Notes: generated by a model not told the origin, from the sequence alone. A stretch of DNA of 50,644 bases from Actinomycetota bacterium (GCA_023489235.1 JAMDDE010000002.1:1-50644), one strand, 5' to 3'; positions 6,812 through 48,302 are shown, counted from the stretch's first letter. A program made the numbers and translations.

Positions 6812-8179
6812 ATGCAAGCATTTCGCGAGGCCATCCTTAATGGAGCAAGTGGAGAGGAGATAGGGGCCATACCCTTACCCGACCACTACCGGGCAGCTAC
6901 CGTTCACCGAGATGAAGTGGGGATGTTCGAAGGTCTCCCTTCGGCAGAAAAAGATCCTAGATTATCACTTCATGTAGAAGAGGTTCCCGTTCCGGAGCTA
7001 GCCCCAGATGAGGCTTACATAGCCGTTATGGCTAGCGCCATAAACTTCAACACGGTATGGTCCTCGATCTTTGAACCACTTCCTACCTTCTCCTTCCTGG
7101 AGCGCCTAGGAAGAGAGAGCAGATGGGGTGCTCGTCACGACCTCCCTTACCACGTCCTAGGCTCAGATGCTTCAGGAGTGGTCATACGGGTCGGATCAGC
7201 GGTACGACACTGGAAACCAGGGGACAAAGTAGTTCTACACTGCAACTACGTAGACGATCAGGACCCTTCTGCTCACCACGACTCCATGCTTGCTGCCAAT
7301 CAACGAATATGGGGGTATGAGTCCAACTTCGGTGGCTTAGCAGATCTAACTGTGGTCAAAGCCAATCAGATAATGCCCAAGCCAGCTCATCTCACTTGGG
7401 AGGAGGCGGCAGTAAATGCGTTGTGCAACTCCACCTCCTATCGCATGCTCGTCTCCAGAAGTGGGGCAGATATGAAACAAGGAGATGTGGTCTTGATATG
7501 GGGTGCTACAGGTGGACTGGGCGGATATGCAGTTCAATACGTCTTGAACGGTGGTGGGATACCAGTAGGGGTGGTTAGCTCAGAGGACAAGGTCCAGCTC
7601 TTAAAGGAAATGGGCTGTGAAGCTGTGATAAACAGGCGGGCCAAGAACTACCGTTTCTGGAAGGACGACCATACCCAGGATGAGTCGGAGTGGCGCCGTT
7701 TCGGGAAGGACATCCGGGCCTTGGTGAACGAGGATCCAGATATCGTATTCGAGCACCCTGGAAGAACGACCATGGGAGCCTCTGTTTTCGTGACAAAGCG
7801 GGGGGGAACCATAGTAACTTGTGCCGCAACTTCAGGGTACTTGGTAGAGTACGACAACAGGCATTTATGGATGAAACTGAAGTCAATCAAGTCAAGCCAC
7901 TTCGCCAACTACCAAGAGGCGTGGGAGGCTAATCGTTTGGTCTGTCTGGGCAAGATCAACCCTACCCTTTCAGTGTGCTATCCATTGGAACAAGTAGGTG
8001 AAGCCGCTTACCAAGTGCATCACAACCTTCATGAAGGGAAGATCGCTGTACTGGCTCTTGCCCCCACGGAAGGACTCGGTATAGACGACTACGCCCTCAG
8101 GGAAAAGATAGGTGAGGATAAGTTGAACATATTCCGCAGACATGCAAGCAGGCAACGTGAGCAAGCCTCTACTGACTGA
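6812..8179 (+). CDS. ccr: Crotonyl-CoA carboxylase/reductase
   Basis: This enzyme reductively carboxylates crotonyl-CoA with CO2 and NADPH to (2S)-ethylmalonyl-CoA, the signature step of the ethylmalonyl-CoA pathway. It is a medium-chain dehydrogenase/reductase of 455 residues from the ATG at 6812. Visible family marks are NFNTVWSSIFEPLPTF, HVLGSDASGVV, KANQIMPKPAHLTWEEAA, the NADPH loop WGATGGLGGYA, FEHPGR, and SSHFANYQEAWEAN. Of the four CO2-pocket residues described for the Kitasatospora enzyme, the Asn (NFNTVW), Glu (WGYES) and His (SSHFAN) are present, but the Phe before the Glu is Tyr. The frame is open upstream, but MQAFREAIL matches the family N-terminus and a leaderless promoter ends exactly there. 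The epimerase gene overlaps its 3' end. Confidence 0.95.
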   Translation: MQAFREAILNGASGEEIGAIPLPDHYRAATVHRDEVGMFEGLPSAEKDPRLSLHVEEVPVPELAPDEAYIAVMASAINFNTVWSSIFEPLPTFSFLERLGRESRWGARHDLPYHVLGSDASGVVIRVGSAVRHWKPGDKVVLHCNYVDDQDPSAHHDSMLAANQRIWGYESNFGGLADLTVVKANQIMPKPAHLTWEEAAVNALCNSTSYRMLVSRSGADMKQGDVVLIWGATGGLGGYAVQYVLNGGGIPVGVVSSEDKVQLLKEMGCEAVINRRAKNYRFWKDDHTQDESEWRRFGKDIRALVNEDPDIVFEHPGRTTMGASVFVTKRGGTIVTCAATSGYLVEYDNRHLWMKLKSIKSSHFANYQEAWEANRLVCLGKINPTLSVCYPLEQVGEAAYQVHHNLHEGKIAVLALAPTEGLGIDDYALREKIGEDKLNIFRRHASRQREQASTD

Positions 8180-21185: not shown

Positions 21186-21810
<625 letters not shown>

Positions 21811-35177: not shown

Positions 35178-36014
35178 CTATCGGGATGAGTTCAAGTCCT
35201 CTTTCTCCAACATCTTGAAGAGTTCCTGGTAACGCTTGGGCATAGTGGGCGTAGTCCGCATAGCCACAGGGATAGGATAGCGCACACCACCTGCATGAGT
35301 GCCCTTGAGTCCACTGGATATCCGCTCGTGGTCATGCCAAGGGAAAGAGAAAGCCATCTCGGAGTCTTGGGCCATGCCAAAGACACGATCACCGTTGCAA
35401 GGAAGAATAACCTTTGGCTCATCGGTCTGCATGGTCTGGATAACAATCTCCGCACAATCGAGCCTACCTCCCACGGTTGACTCAATCCTTCCTCCTGTAC
35501 TGTACAGTGCTGCATTGACCAAACGCATCACTTGAGCACTGTTGCCGTATACAACAACCACGTGGGGTTCAAATGTGGCACTGGCTAGAGGGGCTACACA
35601 CAGTCTGTCGTATATCCCCGTTTCGAACCTCCAGGTACTGGCCTCCAAGTTGGCGGCTGCCTCATCGGTCTCACAGTACATACCTACCGCTATGTAACCT
35701 TTGAGATAAGCATCCACTGGAGGCCTGAACCCAAAGGCAACAGCTGCAGCTGGACAAATAACATCCTCACGGCCAACTGCAACGGCCCATCCATAGCGAC
35801 GCGCTATGCCTATCGATTGACAGATGATCCATCGTTCACCAACGCTCTCGGAAGGTACTCTGACACCCTTTGGCAGCTGCTCTCCTGGCTTGAGCATCCG
35901 CACTGCTACTGGATAGGAATCAGGTCGAACATAACGCTCTATGGCAGCATCGAGCTCCTCCAGCTGCCTAGACACATCGGCACTGGCTTCAACTCCTGTT
36001 GATGCGACTTCCAT
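35178..36014 (-). CDS. DUF169 family protein
   Basis: A 278-residue protein of the DUF169 family, function unknown. Family marks: a SYPVAVRML strand near residue 45, then a paired-Cys region with IICQSIGIARRYG and EDVICPAAAVAFGF, then VVVYGNSAQVMRLVNAALYSTGG and VILPCNGDRVFGM. The conserved cysteines hint at metal or cofactor binding; some relatives occur near methanogenesis or energy genes, but nothing here points to a role. ATG at 36014 has GGAGG four bases upstream; the frame is open 13 codons further without a ribosome site. It lies between tadA and a tRNA-Ser. Confidence 0.78.
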   Translation of the reverse strand: MEVASTGVEASADVSRQLEELDAAIERYVRPDSYPVAVRMLKPGEQLPKGVRVPSESVGERWIICQSIGIARRYGWAVAVGREDVICPAAAVAFGFRPPVDAYLKGYIAVGMYCETDEAAANLEASTWRFETGIYDRLCVAPLASATFEPHVVVVYGNSAQVMRLVNAALYSTGGRIESTVGGRLDCAEIVIQTMQTDEPKVILPCNGDRVFGMAQDSEMAFSFPWHDHERISSGLKGTHAGGVRYPIPVAMRTTPTMPKRYQELFKMLEKEDLNSSR

Positions 36015-36215
36015 GCTGCCTCCTTTTACAAAGCTCAGTCGACCATTCATCAAGCTCCCAAAAGTGGTCTCTTTTGGCAGTCTAGCTGTTCGATGGAGAC
36101 CTCAGCATACCACTGAGATCTTCCGCATAGATAAAGCCAACGATTGCAGGATACTTTCGGTTGGACATCAACGAGCATCCCTACAAAAAACATGTGATAT
36201 ATCGCAACCACAGAG

Positions 36216-40936: not shown

Positions 40937-42238
40937 TCATATCTGATCCATGAACCGCTCCAGCTCCCAGCGAGAAATATGAGAACGGTACTCCTCCGCT
41001 TGTGCTCTCAGCCCAGCCACAAGTCTAATGATCAACTCTTGGTGGAAAGTGTCCACCAAGAAATCGTCATCTAGAAAGCTGTCAAGAGCTGCATCCAGCT
41101 CTCTAGGCAGAGGTAACAATCTAGTGGTTTCAGCTGTTGCAGGATCGAACCCTCCGAACTCTTCCTCCAAGGGTTCTCCTGCCTCCAGTTGCTTGTCCAT
41201 ACCGTCTGCTCCAGCAGCTAGCAGACCAGCAATGATCAAATAAGGGTTGGCTAAAGGATCCGCACCCCTATATTCGAATGACGGAGCACTGTCTTGATCT
41301 CCGGTTACTCTCAACAGAGCAGCTCGATTGATATGGGCCCATGAGATCGTAGAGGGTGCCTCTGGTCCTTGATGGAGTCTCTTGTAAGAGTTCACTGTCG
41401 GGGCGGCAAGCAGAGAAAGCCCCTTGGCGTGAGCAAGCTGACCTCCTAGAAAGCTAAGGGCCTGATGATCGAGCATACCGTTGTCCAACACCTTGAACCC
41501 CTCTACTTGCTGATGAAGGTGGAGCCCGGATCCAGCTAGATGACCAAATGGCCTAGGCATGAAGGTTGCCTTGAGCCCCAAACGGCTCGCCTCCTCCTTG
41601 ACAATCTGACGGGATAGGATCAAGGCATCTGCCAAGGCGAGAGGATCAAGATAGTCTATGTCTATTTCGTACTGCCCGTCTGAGGCTTCATGATGAGAAG
41701 AAACTACCGGTACACCATAGCTTATAAGCCTCCTAACGGCCTCATGTACCGATTCGAAAGATACAGGGGAATAGTCGCTGTAATATTCACCGCTATCTAC
41801 GGGGAAGCCGGCGCTATCCAAGAGATAGAACTCTAGTTCAGCACCCGCCCGGTATCGACTAGCCAGATCACCTACGCCTTTCAGCACGGTCATCAATGCT
41901 GTCCGTGGATCACCCAAGAAAGGAAGGCCATCGGAACCCCTCACACTGCAGACAACCCGTGCCAATCGGTCAGATAACTTGATCATGGTGCTCATATCCG
42001 GTTCCAGCACCATATTTTCTTCAATACTACGAGTTCTGCTCTCCAAAGCAGATCCATCGAATGGCTCTCCAGCTGCGATAACTTGTTGGAAACGTTCAAC
42101 TGGGATGATCACTGAACGTCCTCCCCCAAAGATGTCCACAAAAGCCAAGGACACAAAGGATACCTCGTGCAGGATCTCTTTCACGTTCACCTTTGACTGC
42201 CGTTCCTCACTATGGCTCTCACCCTTTGCGCTATCCAT
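40937..42238 (-). CDS. Glutamine synthetase-like protein (GSI family)
   Basis: A 433-residue member of the GlnA superfamily. The beta-grasp N-domain has FVSLAFVDIFGGGRSVIIPVE and PFDGSALES. Catalytic metal ligands appear in GAELEFYLLD, ASDGQYEIDI and GSGLHLHQ. The loop NSYKRLHQGPEAPS and SFEYRGADPLANPYLI follow. Compared with GlnA, the Tyr adenylylation segment (NLYDLPP) is absent, replaced by an acidic stretch (EPLEEEFGGFDPATAE). It could be true glutamine synthetase or a gamma-glutamyl-amine ligase; I cannot decide. The ATG at 42238 overlaps the kinase stop (TGATG) with AAGGTGG before it; GTG 42250 is an alternative. Last gene of the permease-PP2C-kinase operon. Confidence 0.85.
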   Translation of the reverse strand: MDSAKGESHSEERQSKVNVKEILHEVSFVSLAFVDIFGGGRSVIIPVERFQQVIAAGEPFDGSALESRTRSIEENMVLEPDMSTMIKLSDRLARVVCSVRGSDGLPFLGDPRTALMTVLKGVGDLASRYRAGAELEFYLLDSAGFPVDSGEYYSDYSPVSFESVHEAVRRLISYGVPVVSSHHEASDGQYEIDIDYLDPLALADALILSRQIVKEEASRLGLKATFMPRPFGHLAGSGLHLHQQVEGFKVLDNGMLDHQALSFLGGQLAHAKGLSLLAAPTVNSYKRLHQGPEAPSTISWAHINRAALLRVTGDQDSAPSFEYRGADPLANPYLIIAGLLAAGADGMDKQLEAGEPLEEEFGGFDPATAETTRLLPLPRELDAALDSFLDDDFLVDTFHQELIIRLVAGLRAQAEEYRSHISRWELERFMDQI

Positions 42239-43254
42239 CAACCAACCCACCTTGCTATCAAGACTGCTACTACCACAAGTAAAAGGAACGAAACGGCAAT
42301 GATGGCAACGAAAAAGAACAGGCGCCTGCCGGACGAGGAAGCCGCCATGCCACCCATTGGTTTCTCTGGGGAGAGATCAAAGGCATCAAGGCTCAGGGAG
42401 TTCAAATGATCCAAATCGTAAATAAGTTCATCGGTGCTCTGGTAGCGACTTAGCGGGTTTCGCCTCATCGCTTTGAGCACTACAGCCTCCAAGGCGGGAC
42501 TAATCTCTGACCTCTTCTTCCTCAGCGGTTCAGGAGAGCGTTGTAGATGTGCTGCCATCACTGCCAGGGAATTATCTCCATAAAACGGAACATCACCAGT
42601 GAGCAGTTCATACATCATCACTCCCCAGGAGTAGATGTCACTTCGGTTATCCCCTCGCTCTCCTTGAATCTGCTCTGGGCTCATATAATCAGGAGTACCT
42701 AAAGTCTCGGATAGATGACGCCAGGTCAACCGACGAGCTCCTTGAGCAAGGGCCGTTCCGAAGTCCACAACTTTGAGCACTTCATCGCCGGTTGGTTGAG
42801 CACCGGCCGAAGGCTTGGGCGTAACTAGTATGTTCTCTGGTTTCAGATCCCTGTGCACTATCCCTGAGGCATGGAGGTACGATAGTGCCTCTGCTATCTG
42901 GTGACCGAAGGATAGGGCGACCGATATAGGAAGCGGCACCTGTTGTTCGGACAACAACTGTCTCAACGTAATCCCCTCTACATATTCCAGAACTAGGTAT
43001 GGCTCGCTCCTATGCTCTCCGAAGTCAAGGCTGGCCTGTACTCCTGGATGTGCCAAATGACGCGCTATGTCAATTTCTCTTCGGTAGCGTTGGTAAATGG
43101 CGGGATCTGCAAAAAGAAGTGGATTGGGAAACTTCAGTACCACCATAGAGCCATCGCGGATGTCCTTTGCCTTGAAGGCCTCTCCATATCCGCCCTCCCC
43201 TAGCTCCTCCAAAAGCTCATAGCTGTCCACTACCTCACCAATCTCATGTTTCAT
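42238..43254 (-). CDS. Membrane-anchored serine/threonine protein kinase
   Basis: A 338-residue Hanks-type kinase. Glycine loop LGEGGYGEAF, catalytic Lys in VVLKFPNP, HRDLKPENIL catalytic loop, DFGTA magnesium loop, and SPEQ in place of APE are all present, so it is likely active. After the kinase domain (to about residue 275) comes a short juxtamembrane part and one C-terminal membrane helix (FFFVAIIAVSFLLLVVVAVLIA) ending in four residues outside; there is no PASTA or other sensor domain. The ATG at 43254 overlaps the phosphatase stop (ATGA); GTG at 43278 is a possible longer start. Encoded between a PP2C phosphatase and a GS-like enzyme, its likely partners. Confidence 0.92.
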   Translation of the reverse strand: MKHEIGEVVDSYELLEELGEGGYGEAFKAKDIRDGSMVVLKFPNPLLFADPAIYQRYRREIDIARHLAHPGVQASLDFGEHRSEPYLVLEYVEGITLRQLLSEQQVPLPISVALSFGHQIAEALSYLHASGIVHRDLKPENILVTPKPSAGAQPTGDEVLKVVDFGTALAQGARRLTWRHLSETLGTPDYMSPEQIQGERGDNRSDIYSWGVMMYELLTGDVPFYGDNSLAVMAAHLQRSPEPLRKKRSEISPALEAVVLKAMRRNPLSRYQSTDELIYDLDHLNSLSLDAFDLSPEKPMGGMAASSSGRRLFFFVAIIAVSFLLLVVVAVLIARWVG

Positions 43255-44294
43255 CGTCTGCGTCGCACTCTCCGCCACAGTAAACCGGTTTTCCCTCTGT
43301 TCGACATAGAAGTTTCTCTCATGAAACGAACAGCGGCCACCGTGACATTATCATGAGCCCCACGATCCAATGCTAGTGCAACCAGCTGAGTGACTACCTG
43401 GGTAGCAGAGGACTTTGCCTGGGTCAACAAATCCCTACCAAACAACAGCTGATGCTCGAAGGGCACAGGGAAGTGACCCAACAATGACTCGGTGTCCGGC
43501 TTGGACCTGTAGGTAATCTCTGCATCCCTAATCGTATGAGCAATTTCTTGTTTGGACACCAGATTCCAAAGGCCATCACTGCAAAGTACCACCCAATCGC
43601 CGGAGTTCAATGGTTGACTTAGCATGTCCACTCTCACAACCAGGTCGCCCCCCAGACACCTGGTCAACTGAGAACGAGAGGGGTGGGTACGAGCTTGCTC
43701 AGGCGTTATGAGCCCCATGCGCAGCATCTCTGCAGCTTGACTATGGTCAGCAGTAAGTTGCGTTATCGCATTGCCCCTCAGCAGGTAGGCCCTCGAATCT
43801 CCCACATGTCCAAATACTGCCTCTCCCTTAGTGGCAACCATAATGGTCATGGTGGTTCCCATCCTGAGACCATGGACAACCGCCATCTCCTCCAAGATGG
43901 TTGAGTTGGCTTGGCGAATTGCTTTTCTGACCGCTTGATAAGCATTCACCACCTTCTCGCTCTTCAAGTAGGAGATGACGGATTCCACCGCGATACGACT
44001 GGCACGATCTCCCGCGCTCAACCCGCCTAATCCATCAGCCACTACGAGAACAGTGGCTCGTTCATCATCCAAGTGGGTAGAAGCAGTGACAAGGCTGTGT
44101 GCTGCATAATCTTCGTTACGAGGACGAAGCTTGCCAGGGTCCGACAGAAGGGCCCATTCGAGGCAGGGATCTTCTCCACTGGCAAAAAGTCTGCCATTGC
44201 CGACATCCTCACTCAACCCTCTAGCCCCAGGTTCTACAGTGAAGTTGCTCTGCCTCGAGATAGTCCTTCCTTTCAACAACCGCAGTTGCTCCAT
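43251..44294 (-). CDS. PP2C-family serine/threonine phosphatase
   Basis: A 347-residue PPM-type phosphatase. Metal-site motifs: RPRNEDYAAH, VVADGLGGLSAGD, GHVGDSRAYLL, VLCSDGLWNLV and GAHDNVTVAAV. A stretch of about 40 residues (RDAEITYRSKPDTE...LLFGRDLL) before the last motif looks like an insertion. The N-terminal 45 residues are unique. The start is uncertain: the ATG at 44294 has no good ribosome site, and TTG at 44216 behind GGGGCTAGAGGG is an alternative. It probably reverses the kinase encoded next (overlapping ATGA), a common pair in actinobacteria. 33 nt after the permease gene. Confidence 0.92.
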   Translation of the reverse strand: MEQLRLLKGRTISRQSNFTVEPGARGLSEDVGNGRLFASGEDPCLEWALLSDPGKLRPRNEDYAAHSLVTASTHLDDERATVLVVADGLGGLSAGDRASRIAVESVISYLKSEKVVNAYQAVRKAIRQANSTILEEMAVVHGLRMGTTMTIMVATKGEAVFGHVGDSRAYLLRGNAITQLTADHSQAAEMLRMGLITPEQARTHPSRSQLTRCLGGDLVVRVDMLSQPLNSGDWVVLCSDGLWNLVSKQEIAHTIRDAEITYRSKPDTESLLGHFPVPFEHQLLFGRDLLTQAKSSATQVVTQLVALALDRGAHDNVTVAAVRFMRETSMSNRGKTGLLWRRVRRRR

Positions 44295-44327
44295 GTCCAG
44301 GAAGCTGCAGTGGGTGCACCAGTCGTA

Positions 44328-45914
44328 TCATGCCGGTAGAGATACCTTGGATGCTGTACTGTGATCATCCAGCACCTTGACCCCTCTCATTCGAGGATTC
44401 ACCTTGACCCAAATGGCTCCAGCTACTACCCACGCAGCTACGATACCGAGAGCTACATAGGCATCCAGAGAAGAGGAGCCACCAGCTTTCACTGCTAGGT
44501 AGACCACTCCAACAAACTCAGCCAAGTTCATGACCAAACCTAAGCCGGGAATTACTGAGTGCTTGATGGGATGACGATCTGCCCTACCAGCAAAGGCTAT
44601 GAGTGCAACTAGACAAGTCATGCCATAGACAAGGAACGTACCCGTATTGGAAGCCAAGGTGATCTGAGTAAGGGTGTTCACCGATTTGAGTCCGTAAATT
44701 CCAAGAAGTGCAGATATTCCTGTCAGTACCCATATGCTTGCATAAGGGGTAGCAAACTTGCCATGCAGAAACGACAGCAAGCTAGGCATTTCCTTCTCCC
44801 GTGCCATCGCATAGGTGACCCTTACCCCTGTGTTCAGACAAGCCAATGTGGTCCCGACCAAGGCGAGCAAGACCGTAGCCGCCATGATAAGAGCTAACAC
44901 TACGCCTACGCCATGACCAAAGGTCATATTGCCCATTTTGGTAACCATGTCTCCTATGGGCGCAGAGGCGTTGGCTGCTGCAGCATAACCTCCTACATAG
45001 CTCTTTCCACTGCCGGTTGATATCGTCCCTCCGCCTATCACATAGTTGGCAGCCAAATACTCAAATAAATAGCAAATAGCTCCTTGAATGATCAGAGAGA
45101 GCATGACGCCCCTCTTCACATCTCGTTCTGGGTTGCGCGCTTCTGCACCAAGAGCCGTGGCTGACTCGAATCCAACCACCAACAGTATCGCTATGGTGGA
45201 TTGGTAAAGAACAGAGAGCAAGTTATGGGGTATGATCACCCCACCAAAACCAGAGGGATGCGCATAACCGCCTGCCAAGTGCGGATGAGAGAGGCGAAAG
45301 ACGATAGCGAACACTCCAAATGCTACTAGAGCAGTGATTTGAACTACGTTGATGATAACTGCCACATTGGTGGAACCAGTTATACCTCTGTAGGCTATGT
45401 AACCCACACCACCTGCAAACAGAACAGCAATAGCGGCAAGTGGAAGAAATCCGAGTGCATGACCACCAGTAATAGTTTGATATATGTAACCGACCAATGT
45501 AGCACCAAATGCAACCATGATGCCTGGATATATCCAGTAATACAGGTGACTTATCCACCCGAATGACAACTTAGCTAAACGGGCATAACGGCGATGACGC
45601 TTCTTCTCCTTATCCAAGAAAGCTGCCTCGGCAAAGTAGTAGCTCGAGCCCGTTCCAGCCCCAGGATATATACGAGCCAGTTCTGCATAACTATATGCTG
45701 TGAACATAGCCAGTATCAATGCCAATAACAACCCTGGCCACATAGCCGGAGCAGTTGAATGAGATCCGGCTGACAAAGCTGATTGCTCAGCAAAGGTCGT
45801 CCACAAGAATGCTCCCGGAGCAATGAGCGCCATGGCATTAACCGTCACGCCAGTCAACGTAAGCGTGCGCTTCATACTCACGGGAGCTGTAGATTCAGCA
45901 TTGGCAGCATCCAC
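44328..45914 (-). CDS. Amino acid permease (APC superfamily)
   Basis: A 528-residue transporter with about 12 to 14 membrane helices. Helix 1 has LTGVTVNAMALIAPGAFLW with the unwound glycine region, helix 2-3 TAYSYAELARIYPGAGTGSSYYF, and helix 6 VGFESATALGAEARNPERDVKRGV, all APC landmarks. Substrate is unknown; it probably imports an amino acid or amine. The ATG has AAGGAGG about 12 nt upstream. It heads the operon permease-PP2C-kinase-GS, so the imported compound may be the substrate or the signal for the enzymes encoded downstream. Confidence 0.9.
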   Translation of the reverse strand: MDAANAESTAPVSMKRTLTLTGVTVNAMALIAPGAFLWTTFAEQSALSAGSHSTAPAMWPGLLLALILAMFTAYSYAELARIYPGAGTGSSYYFAEAAFLDKEKKRHRRYARLAKLSFGWISHLYYWIYPGIMVAFGATLVGYIYQTITGGHALGFLPLAAIAVLFAGGVGYIAYRGITGSTNVAVIINVVQITALVAFGVFAIVFRLSHPHLAGGYAHPSGFGGVIIPHNLLSVLYQSTIAILLVVGFESATALGAEARNPERDVKRGVMLSLIIQGAICYLFEYLAANYVIGGGTISTGSGKSYVGGYAAAANASAPIGDMVTKMGNMTFGHGVGVVLALIMAATVLLALVGTTLACLNTGVRVTYAMAREKEMPSLLSFLHGKFATPYASIWVLTGISALLGIYGLKSVNTLTQITLASNTGTFLVYGMTCLVALIAFAGRADRHPIKHSVIPGLGLVMNLAEFVGVVYLAVKAGGSSSLDAYVALGIVAAWVVAGAIWVKVNPRMRGVKVLDDHSTASKVSLPA

Positions 45915-46173: not shown

Positions 46174-47604
46174 TCACAGCACCTGTCGCCTCTTGTCGGG
46201 TTGGCTTCTGTATATAGTAACGTCTGCCTGCCAAGCCATGGCCGTGGCCACCCCTACGGCAATCATCGCTGGAGGCATGATCCCAATGGTACCGGTCATC
46301 TCAGCCACCATCACCAGAACGGCGAAGGGTGCACGTGATGCACTACCAAAGCAAGCCATCATGGACACGATGACAAAAGGAACCGCACTGTGAGGTATGC
46401 CCGGAACTACACCGTGAAACAATCGCCAGAAAGCTGCACCAGTAAAGGCTCCTATAACTATGCCTGGGCCAAATGTTCCCCCAATCCCTCCAGATCCCAA
46501 TGAAGCAGAGGTCGTAAGGATGTGCAAGAATGGTACGGCCAAGATGATCCACAAAGGTATGCTCACCATTCCAGCCTGCAAAGACCTCTGCACCCAACCA
46601 TTGCCTGTACCTAGAACCTCGGGAACTGCCAAAGCCACCACCCCTGTAACTGCCCCACCCATGCTAACTTTGAGCAAAAAAGGAATCTTCCGTCTCGCAA
46701 ACCAATCAGAGATGCCGTAAAAACCCTTTGCATAGAGGATTCCCATACCACCAGCAACGACTCCTAAGAGTAAATACCAGAGCAAGTTCAGTGGATGATT
46801 AAATACATACGGTTTTCCTTTATAAGCAAATAAAAGCCGGAATCCATTGATGCTACCGAATACCCCGTAAGCAACTGCAGATGCAATAGCGGAAGGAATG
46901 AGTACCTCAGCCTCCAGGTCTTGACGGTAGAGGATTTCAGCAGAAAATATAGCGCCACCTAAGGGAGCTCTGAATATAGCACCAATGCCCGAGCCAATCC
47001 CAGAAGCTACAGCTATGCGTGCATCCCCAGGCGAAAGATAGAGTGTCCGGGCAAGCATCGAAGCAGTTCCACCGGTAATTTGTGCTGTTGGACCTTCTGG
47101 ACCAGCAGATCCTCCTGAACCAATAGTCGCTGCTGCTGCAAGAATTTCTCCTATGACAGCTCGAAAGCGCATACCCCAAGGATTTTTATGTGCCGCCAAC
47201 AGGACACCGTCAATCCCGTGATCTTTGACTTTAGGAGCCAAAGTGGAAATGATAATGCCGGCAAGCAACGCTCCGCTTGTTGTAATAAGCGGTAAAGCCC
47301 ATGGCCGCAAATACTTTGCTGAGCCATGATGATCACCGCTCGCTGCTGAAGTTGGGACATGATACCCAACAACTATGCCAAGGAAGAAATGAGTAGAGAT
47401 GGAGAGCAAGTCTGCGAATACAACGGCTCCAAGCCCACCACCTACTCCTATGAGAACGCCAAGAAATAACCACTTTCGTAAGTAACCTCCGTACAAGAAA
47501 TGCGATGACAAACTAACAAGCTTTTGACGAACGATATAGGCTATCTCTGCGAGGCCAATGGTTGCCTTATTCATGCAAATCTTGAGCTTGCTCAAATTGG
47601 CCAC
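46174..47604 (-). CDS. ClC-family chloride channel or Cl-/H+ exchanger
   Basis: A 476-residue ClC protein. Filter motifs: IGSGGSAGPEGPTAQ (with the gating Glu in PEGP), GAIFRAPLGGAIFSAE, and SLGSGGIGGTFGPGIVIGA. The canonical GSGIP is GSGGS, a variation that can alter ion preference (Ser to Pro variants separate chloride from nitrate). No C-terminal CBS domains. ClC proteins help extreme acid resistance, which suits an acidophile, but this is inference. GTG at 47604 overlaps the MarR gene by 13 nt; ATG at 47574 is an alternative. Confidence 0.9.
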   Translation of the reverse strand: MANLSKLKICMNKATIGLAEIAYIVRQKLVSLSSHFLYGGYLRKWLFLGVLIGVGGGLGAVVFADLLSISTHFFLGIVVGYHVPTSAASGDHHGSAKYLRPWALPLITTSGALLAGIIISTLAPKVKDHGIDGVLLAAHKNPWGMRFRAVIGEILAAAATIGSGGSAGPEGPTAQITGGTASMLARTLYLSPGDARIAVASGIGSGIGAIFRAPLGGAIFSAEILYRQDLEAEVLIPSAIASAVAYGVFGSINGFRLLFAYKGKPYVFNHPLNLLWYLLLGVVAGGMGILYAKGFYGISDWFARRKIPFLLKVSMGGAVTGVVALAVPEVLGTGNGWVQRSLQAGMVSIPLWIILAVPFLHILTTSASLGSGGIGGTFGPGIVIGAFTGAAFWRLFHGVVPGIPHSAVPFVIVSMMACFGSASRAPFAVLVMVAEMTGTIGIMPPAMIAVGVATAMAWQADVTIYRSQPDKRRQVL

Positions 47605-48302
47605 TCTCTAACAGTTGTCTTGTCGAAATCTCTAAGATCTCCTAAGGTAAAATCAACTACTTCAGGGTTAGCAGCTTCCTGGTAATTTCTCTCTCCGTCT
47701 TCGATCTGAGATGTGCTCACAGGGTCAGAGGGGGTTCGGAGGACAGTACCTGACGTAGTCGATTGAAAAGAAGAAGGAGCTTTACCTACCGTTTCGCTTG
47801 GAGCAGTGGGGTTGGCACTAAAGCTTTTCTCGGCAACCTCGGTAAAGACAGAGAGAGCTTCTACTATCTCTCTCTGCTGGCGGAAGGAGAGTACACTCAG
47901 GATACGCCCTAGCTCTTCCCGCCTCCGATCCGTCACCTCCGAGATCAACTGGCGCCCGAAACTGGATAGGAAGATAGTAGTTTGGCGCCGGTCTCCTCTG
48001 GAGCGTTGCCGTCGAATCAAACCTTTGCGCACAAGCCGATCGCACAAGCGGGTCACCGTCGAAGAACTGACCGAAAGTTCCTCGGCTAAATCAGAGACGG
48101 TGAGGCCCGGGCGACGGTTAAGAACCACCATCGCTCTGTACTGAGCTAGAGTGATGTCCGCATCCAAACCAACGAGCGAACGTGCAGCAACAGCTACTAA
48201 AGCTCTACTGGCTTCAAGAACAACTTCCACCACTGAGACATTTTCATTAGGTTTATCAGGGATCTCGTTGGTTCCAACATTCTCCCGTAATTTCTTCGAC
48301 AT
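47592..48302 (-). CDS. MarR-family transcriptional regulator with long C-terminal tail
   Basis: A 236-residue protein. The winged helix-turn-helix occupies about residues 45-120: LAQYRAMVVLNRRPGLTVSDLAEEL, recognition helix SVSSSTVTRLCDRLVRKGLI, and wing RQRSRGDRRQTTIFLS. The dimer helices follow to about 160. The remaining 75 residues are Ser/Thr/Pro-rich and end in an acidic stretch with no known domain. MarR proteins usually repress their own operon and release DNA on binding a small molecule. It is translated just ahead of and overlapping the ClC gene, so it likely controls ion transport; three 16-nt repeats upstream are candidate operators. Confidence 0.9.
   Translation of the reverse strand: MSKKLRENVGTNEIPDKPNENVSVVEVVLEASRALVAVAARSLVGLDADITLAQYRAMVVLNRRPGLTVSDLAEELSVSSSTVTRLCDRLVRKGLIRRQRSRGDRRQTTIFLSSFGRQLISEVTDRRREELGRILSVLSFRQQREIVEALSVFTEVAEKSFSANPTAPSETVGKAPSSFQSTTSGTVLRTPSDPVSTSQIEDGERNYQEAANPEVVDFTLGDLRDFDKTTVREWPI

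Follow-up and report, generated by a model that had tools for sequence, protein, structure and literature searches.

Four adjacent genes in the genome of an Actinomycetota bacterium encode an amino-acid permease, a protein phosphatase, a Ser/Thr kinase and a glutamine synthetase (GS) homologue, which raises the question of whether they form one functional unit and, if so, on which protein the kinase and phosphatase act. The window, i.e., the whole stretch of DNA analysed, comprises 50,644 nucleotides. A sequence-only reading had proposed that transport, reversible phosphorylation and amidation genes constitute one unit in which the kinase/phosphatase pair controls the permease or the ligase in response to the imported compound, replacing adenylylation control.

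Layout of the locus

The four genes have the following positions in the window:

44328-45914, minus strand: APC-family amino-acid permease, the core gene of the module (PF13520, 72 bits; AF2 model)
43251-44294, minus strand: PP2C (PPM) Ser/Thr protein phosphatase (PF13672, 67 bits; motif alignment)
42238-43254 (open frame to 43278), minus strand: Hanks-type Ser/Thr kinase (STK) with a single C-terminal transmembrane (TM) helix (PF00069, 168.6 bits)
40937-42238 (open frame to 42250), minus strand: divergent type I glutamine synthetase, GSI-alpha-like (PF00120, 242 bits; PF03951)

The initial description of four minus-strand genes with a 33-nt gap followed by overlaps agrees with the ORFs, the Pfam and NCBIfam matches and the junction sequences: the permease and PP2C genes are separated by 33 nt, the PP2C/kinase junction is ATGA and the kinase/GS junction is TGATG. 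Because of these junctions, the ATG codons at 43254 (338 aa) and 42238 (433 aa) are the likelier starts of the kinase and the GS, respectively. A promoter and terminator scan gave a signal no better than that of shuffled sequences. Just upstream of the permease (window 46174-48302) there is a gene for a ClC-type channel/antiporter, together with a MarR regulator, and a DUF169 (COG2043) protein is encoded at window positions 35178-36053, adjoining a tRNA-Ser. The acyl-CoA ligase and ABC genes that lie downstream were rejected as module members, as they are not retained beside the module in relatives. An anti-phage defence reading was also rejected: in PADLOC, the kinase matches only broad models for Ser/Thr kinases, and the permease and GS gave no match.

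Conservation of the four-gene module

Among the genomes compared, the source genome is the sole representative of its own family. A permease profile search detected the permease subfamily in 17 of 298 genomes of the order, and the GS is present in 14 of these 17, counting G087, where a contig break has probably divided the locus; the remaining three loci stop at contig edges. Neither the permease subfamily nor the module GS was seen in the other 281 of the 298 genomes (Fisher p about 2e-21 for the co-occurrence, a statistic that ignores kinship), which suggests that the module is patchy within the order and travels as a set. In 12 other genomes of the order, the GS (a fragment in G102) is clearly closer to the window GS than canonical GlnA is, and in all 12 the permease, PP2C, kinase and GS genes are adjacent and on the same strand. 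Ten of these have retained the gene order of the window, including L044 with two tandem kinases, and the other two have the rotated order STK-GS-PERM-PP2C, where PERM is the permease. Tandem module kinases (L044 10101-12028; L080 13303-15230) consist of a first kinase without a TM helix and a second one with one.

A single-sequence GS search of genome contigs gave no match, and the permease profile search did give matches. The cross-phylum search therein used the permease profile only, which was derived from module permeases, with one genome per species; the kinase, phosphatase and GS played no part in it. Among the best 80 of 264 permease relatives, which were those analysed, loci were assigned by MAG or record titles and taxonomy to at least nine phyla, the assignments being Actinomycetota, Chloroflexota, Dormiibacterota, Ignavibacteriota, Bacteroidota, Acidobacteriota, Pseudomonadota, Myxococcota and two methanogen MAGs; many module loci are MAGs. 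The adjacency rates come from these best 80 of 264 matches, the remoter 184 lying outside the count: at the 59 loci for which 3.5 kb or more of downstream sequence was available, PP2C or kinase adjoins the permease in all 59, both are adjacent in 55, and all four module genes are present in 43. The PP2C-kinase pair was absent from 60 of 60 control windows (20 kb each) drawn from six Actinomycetota genomes; it should be noted that these genomes differ from those of most test loci and that the loci are phylogenetically redundant. With the furthest-upstream start that each frame allows, the median PP2C-STK and STK-GS junctions are both -3 nt, and both STK-GS-PERM-PP2C and PP2C-STK-GS-PERM occur as rotated orders. 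Moreover, the pairwise distances of the four module proteins correlate (Mantel r 0.79-0.89), as joint inheritance predicts. These data support the view that the four genes are one unit, conserved, rotated orders included, far beyond Acidimicrobiia. The proposed unit has therefore withstood the neighbourhood survey that had been set in advance as its check, both in the order and well outside it.

Several loci have individual features. The module genes of L087 and L112 come from contigs whose bins are labelled Methanosarcina and Methanoregula, reflecting either archaeal transfer or mis-binning. In L076, a universal stress protein gene (7527-8006) sits between PP2C and the kinase, and L146 (G221:C14:41050-42609) has one in-frame TAA within the permease match. 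The names of carrier isolates often refer to bog, fen, palsa or similar (L058-L137); a link to acidic habitats is a guess.

The kinase and the phosphatase

The kinase contains the catalytic Lys and the HRDxxxxN (HRDLKPEN), DFG and APE-type motifs, and the activation-loop residues Thr185 and Thr195 (346-aa numbering) are invariant. The metal-binding Asp motifs of the PP2C are complete, and its score against the Stp1/IreP model NF033484 is 208.8 bits, below the cut-off of 230. Pfam and the alignments hence confirm that the catalytic motifs of both enzymes are complete. The kinase has one C-terminal TM helix with almost nothing past it, as do 70 of 76 relatives (median of 6 residues past the TM helix). 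Since only a few residues follow this helix, the kinase has no sensor outside the cell, in line with the earlier description of a membrane-anchored kinase without a sensor domain. PASTA kinases, of which PrkC is one, are represented by the model NF033483, which matches only the kinase part of the window protein (277.6 versus 450); PASTA repeats or another extracellular sensor are absent from the window kinase. In a tree with 30 other kinases, all of them from the order of the window, the 76 module kinases form one clade (support 98). The module kinase is also distinct from the PknB-like kinase of the same genome.

The permease

The permease matches PF13520 with 72 bits versus 27. Its AF2 model, built with 58 relatives (pLDDT 87, pTM 0.90), predicts a LeuT-type fold in which TM1 (IAPG) and TM6 are broken, and the nearest PDB folds are of the GkApcT type (6f34/5oqt, TM 0.68/0.78). 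In sequence and predicted fold, the permease is closest to CAT-type transporters, the nearest solved folds being bacterial CAT homologues. All 86 of 86 relatives have Ser or Thr as residue 17, immediately ahead of TM1. This residue is a candidate phosphosite, weakly supported because Ser/Thr at this position may be a family trait.

The glutamine synthetase homologue

The window GS scores 273 bits against the TIGR00653 equivalog, whose cut-off is 429, and therefore is a divergent homologue and not a plain GlnA. All metal ligands (E129, E131, E212, E220, H269 and E357) and Arg321/339/344/359 are present. The ammonium site is likewise intact: the window GS has D50, Y179 and E327, as does every full-length module GS protein examined, and the S53 position is Ala in the window GS. 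Because D50, Y179 and E327 are retained, the module GS is predicted to use ammonia. N264 is replaced in the GS proteins of the window clade (Ala/Pro) and R355 is mostly Ser/Thr/Ala/Gly, so full GS activity is not certain and altered kinetics are possible.

The arrangement of a permease next to a GS-like gene resembles the puuP/puuA layout, and it may be argued that the locus is an amine-utilisation operon to which phospho-control has been added, with the GS homologue being a gamma-glutamyl-amine ligase. We consider this very improbable. D50, Y179 and E327 are no longer present in PuuA or in the C41 homologue of this genome, a loss that has also been described, together with the ammonium-site meaning of these residues, for GlnA4 and PauA7 (PMC6529630), whereas the module GS retains all three. 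Furthermore, the window GS reaches only 202 bits against NF045547 (cut-off 650), and no puuB/C/D-like gene was present among the Pfam-named neighbour clusters. The amine-ligase identity of the GS was rejected on the residues.

GSI-alpha enzymes generally do not have the adenylylation Tyr. The earlier observation that the GS-like protein is without this residue holds, Gly being aligned to the Tyr397 position in the window GS. However, its extension, that phosphorylation replaces adenylylation control, had to be rejected, because GSI-alpha enzymes are without the Tyr in any case; in addition, the genome has further GS genes of its own, and in the tree one of them clusters with GlnA of E. coli. 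The actinobacterial module GS proteins form one fully supported clade on a long branch, close to the module GS proteins of Dormiibacterota and of one group of Chloroflexota. The remaining module GS proteins branch elsewhere in the tree, and the GS may therefore have been recruited into the module more than once.

The long branch of the actinobacterial clade and the replacement of N264 and R355 there would also fit a GS that is not a working enzyme but a sensor of glutamine or nitrogen status, binding and controlling the kinase or phosphatase. Two observations argue against this possibility, namely that no full-length module GS protein examined has lost the metal ligands or the ammonium site, and that many modules without GS still have kinase and phosphatase, and it seems improbable to us.

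Core and accessory genes

The permease and kinase are a near-constant pair, also at loci without PP2C or GS. Ktedonobacteria and a large clade of Chloroflexota have no GS at the locus, where permease and kinase persist, and label changes on the permease tree number six for GS and two for STK. In Ktedonobacteria, PP2C is not adjacent to the permease; L113, L120 and L126 of this group have permease, kinase and then gltB (GOGAT), with no adjacent PP2C or GS. Losses of the GS outnumber those of the kinase, and the core target is therefore most likely the permease. Several lineages without GS retain permease, PP2C and kinase, so that the GS is probably not the sole target of the kinase/phosphatase pair. 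The proposal that the pair may act on the permease or the GS in response to the imported compound is consistent with the data.

In genome G386, the permease, PP2C and GS genes are adjacent and a module-type kinase, scoring 468 bits versus at most 255 for the other kinases of this genome, is present on another contig. This arrangement bears on an alternative in which the targets of the kinase and PP2C are remote or general, the linkage being due to joint operon inheritance without regulation of the neighbours. In its favour, bacterial kinases often have pleiotropic targets. Nevertheless, the retention of the module-type kinase in trans in G386, the separation of the module kinase from the PknB-like kinase of the genome, and a linkage that, going by the MAG assignments, extends over at least nine phyla, reordered but together, make this alternative unlikely.

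Nitrogen-gene context

At least one of amtB, a P-II gene or gltB is present in the flank of 15 of 59 loci versus 5 of 60 controls (p 0.015). The P-II part of this context is weakened because methanogen MAGs have many P-II genes. In the window, two such genes are located side by side outside the operon, each being the only copy found in the genome:

19761-21185, plus strand: AmtB (PF00909, 300 bits), about 20 kb away from the operon
21472-21810, plus strand: P-II, GlnK/GlnB (PF00543, 107 bits), about 19 kb from the operon

The Dormiibacterota loci L092, L094 and L099 have two or three GS genes around the module, and L092 and L099 additionally carry amtB, P-II and canonical GlnA.

A proposed phospho-switch and its relation to known systems

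The analysis establishes the gene anatomy, the conserved linkage, the single kinase clade, the intact ammonium site of the GS and the nitrogen-gene context; which protein phosphorylates which, what the substrate and the signal are, and in which direction control runs are inferred. Our preferred reading, to which we assign a probability of about 0.5, is that the module is a self-contained and portable phospho-switch dedicated to the uptake of nitrogen compounds and tied to glutamine synthesis. The permease would import an amino acid or a related nitrogen compound; the permease would be phosphorylated by the membrane-tethered kinase, its cytosolic side being the most plausible place, and dephosphorylated by the PP2C of the neighbouring gene. 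Where linked, the GS would convert glutamate and ammonia into glutamine and, because of this linkage, uptake and assimilation may be set jointly; the GS is a possible second kinase substrate. As the kinase has no outside domain, the signal would have to come from inside the cell or sideways via the permease.

The latter route leads to another view, namely that the permease is the sensor (a transceptor) whose transport state activates the kinase sideways, with GS, P-II, GOGAT and AmtB, and not the permease, as targets. We entertain this tentatively as the strongest competitor. It would explain a kinase without its own sensor, the near-constant permease-kinase pair even without PP2C or GS, and nitrogen genes near module loci. 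Two precedents also speak for it: the sensing of amino acids via partner membrane proteins by GlnH-GlnX-PknG (PMC6069109), and Bacillus subtilis PrkC, listed as a Ser/Thr kinase phosphorylating GlnA (PMC6213207). On the other hand, the GS is not beside many modules. A combined form, in which the permease of a nutrient transceptor found in at least nine phyla reports flux to the sensorless kinase, and kinase and PP2C set both the permease and glutamine synthesis, is rather speculative. Genome context cannot separate the target of the kinase from its sensor.

We found no description of the module in the open-access literature, to which our survey was confined; within that literature, the earlier remark that no described system of this composition was known stands. 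The closest functional precedent is the GlnX-GlnH-PknG-GarA/OdhI system of Mycobacterium and Corynebacterium, in which an operon-encoded Ser/Thr kinase is linked via partner membrane proteins to amino-acid supply and glutamate metabolism (PMC6069109). It shares the idea and not the components: in that system the kinase is soluble, has a TPR domain and receives its input from GlnX and a solute-binding lipoprotein, whereas the module has a permease, a TM-anchored kinase, PP2C and GS, and GlnH, GlnX and a TPR-containing PknG are absent among its genes. Phosphorylation by a kinase is precedented for a transporter, Rv1747 of Mycobacterium tuberculosis by PknF, as well as for a GS, the GlnA listed for PrkC (PMC6213207). 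However, Rv1747 is an ABC transporter with FHA domains and no GS partner, and the PrkC-GlnA pair is not part of a permease-GS operon. In E. coli puuP-puuA an APC permease also adjoins a GS homologue, but PuuA ligates putrescine and has no ammonium site, and there is no kinase or PP2C. SLC12 transporters (NKCC1, NCC), which are among the fold matches of the modelled permease and share its APC fold, are switched by phosphorylation of their N-terminal tail, but these are ion cotransporters with large termini whose kinases are not encoded beside them. In yeast, nitrogen status controls nitrogen permeases via the kinase Npr1 under TORC1 (PMC4501750); this system is eukaryotic, is not homologous as a system, and acts on ammonium transporters via Amu1/Par32.

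Both the signals sensed by bacterial Ser/Thr kinases and the proteins modified by them are a long-standing question. It is directly testable here, because the likely kinase, phosphatase, transporter and enzyme are packed in a few kilobases. The module is possibly an undescribed on/off phosphate switch for the uptake and assimilation of nitrogen compounds. If true, this would add a layer of phosphorylation to bacterial nitrogen control, which is best known for adenylylation and P-II.
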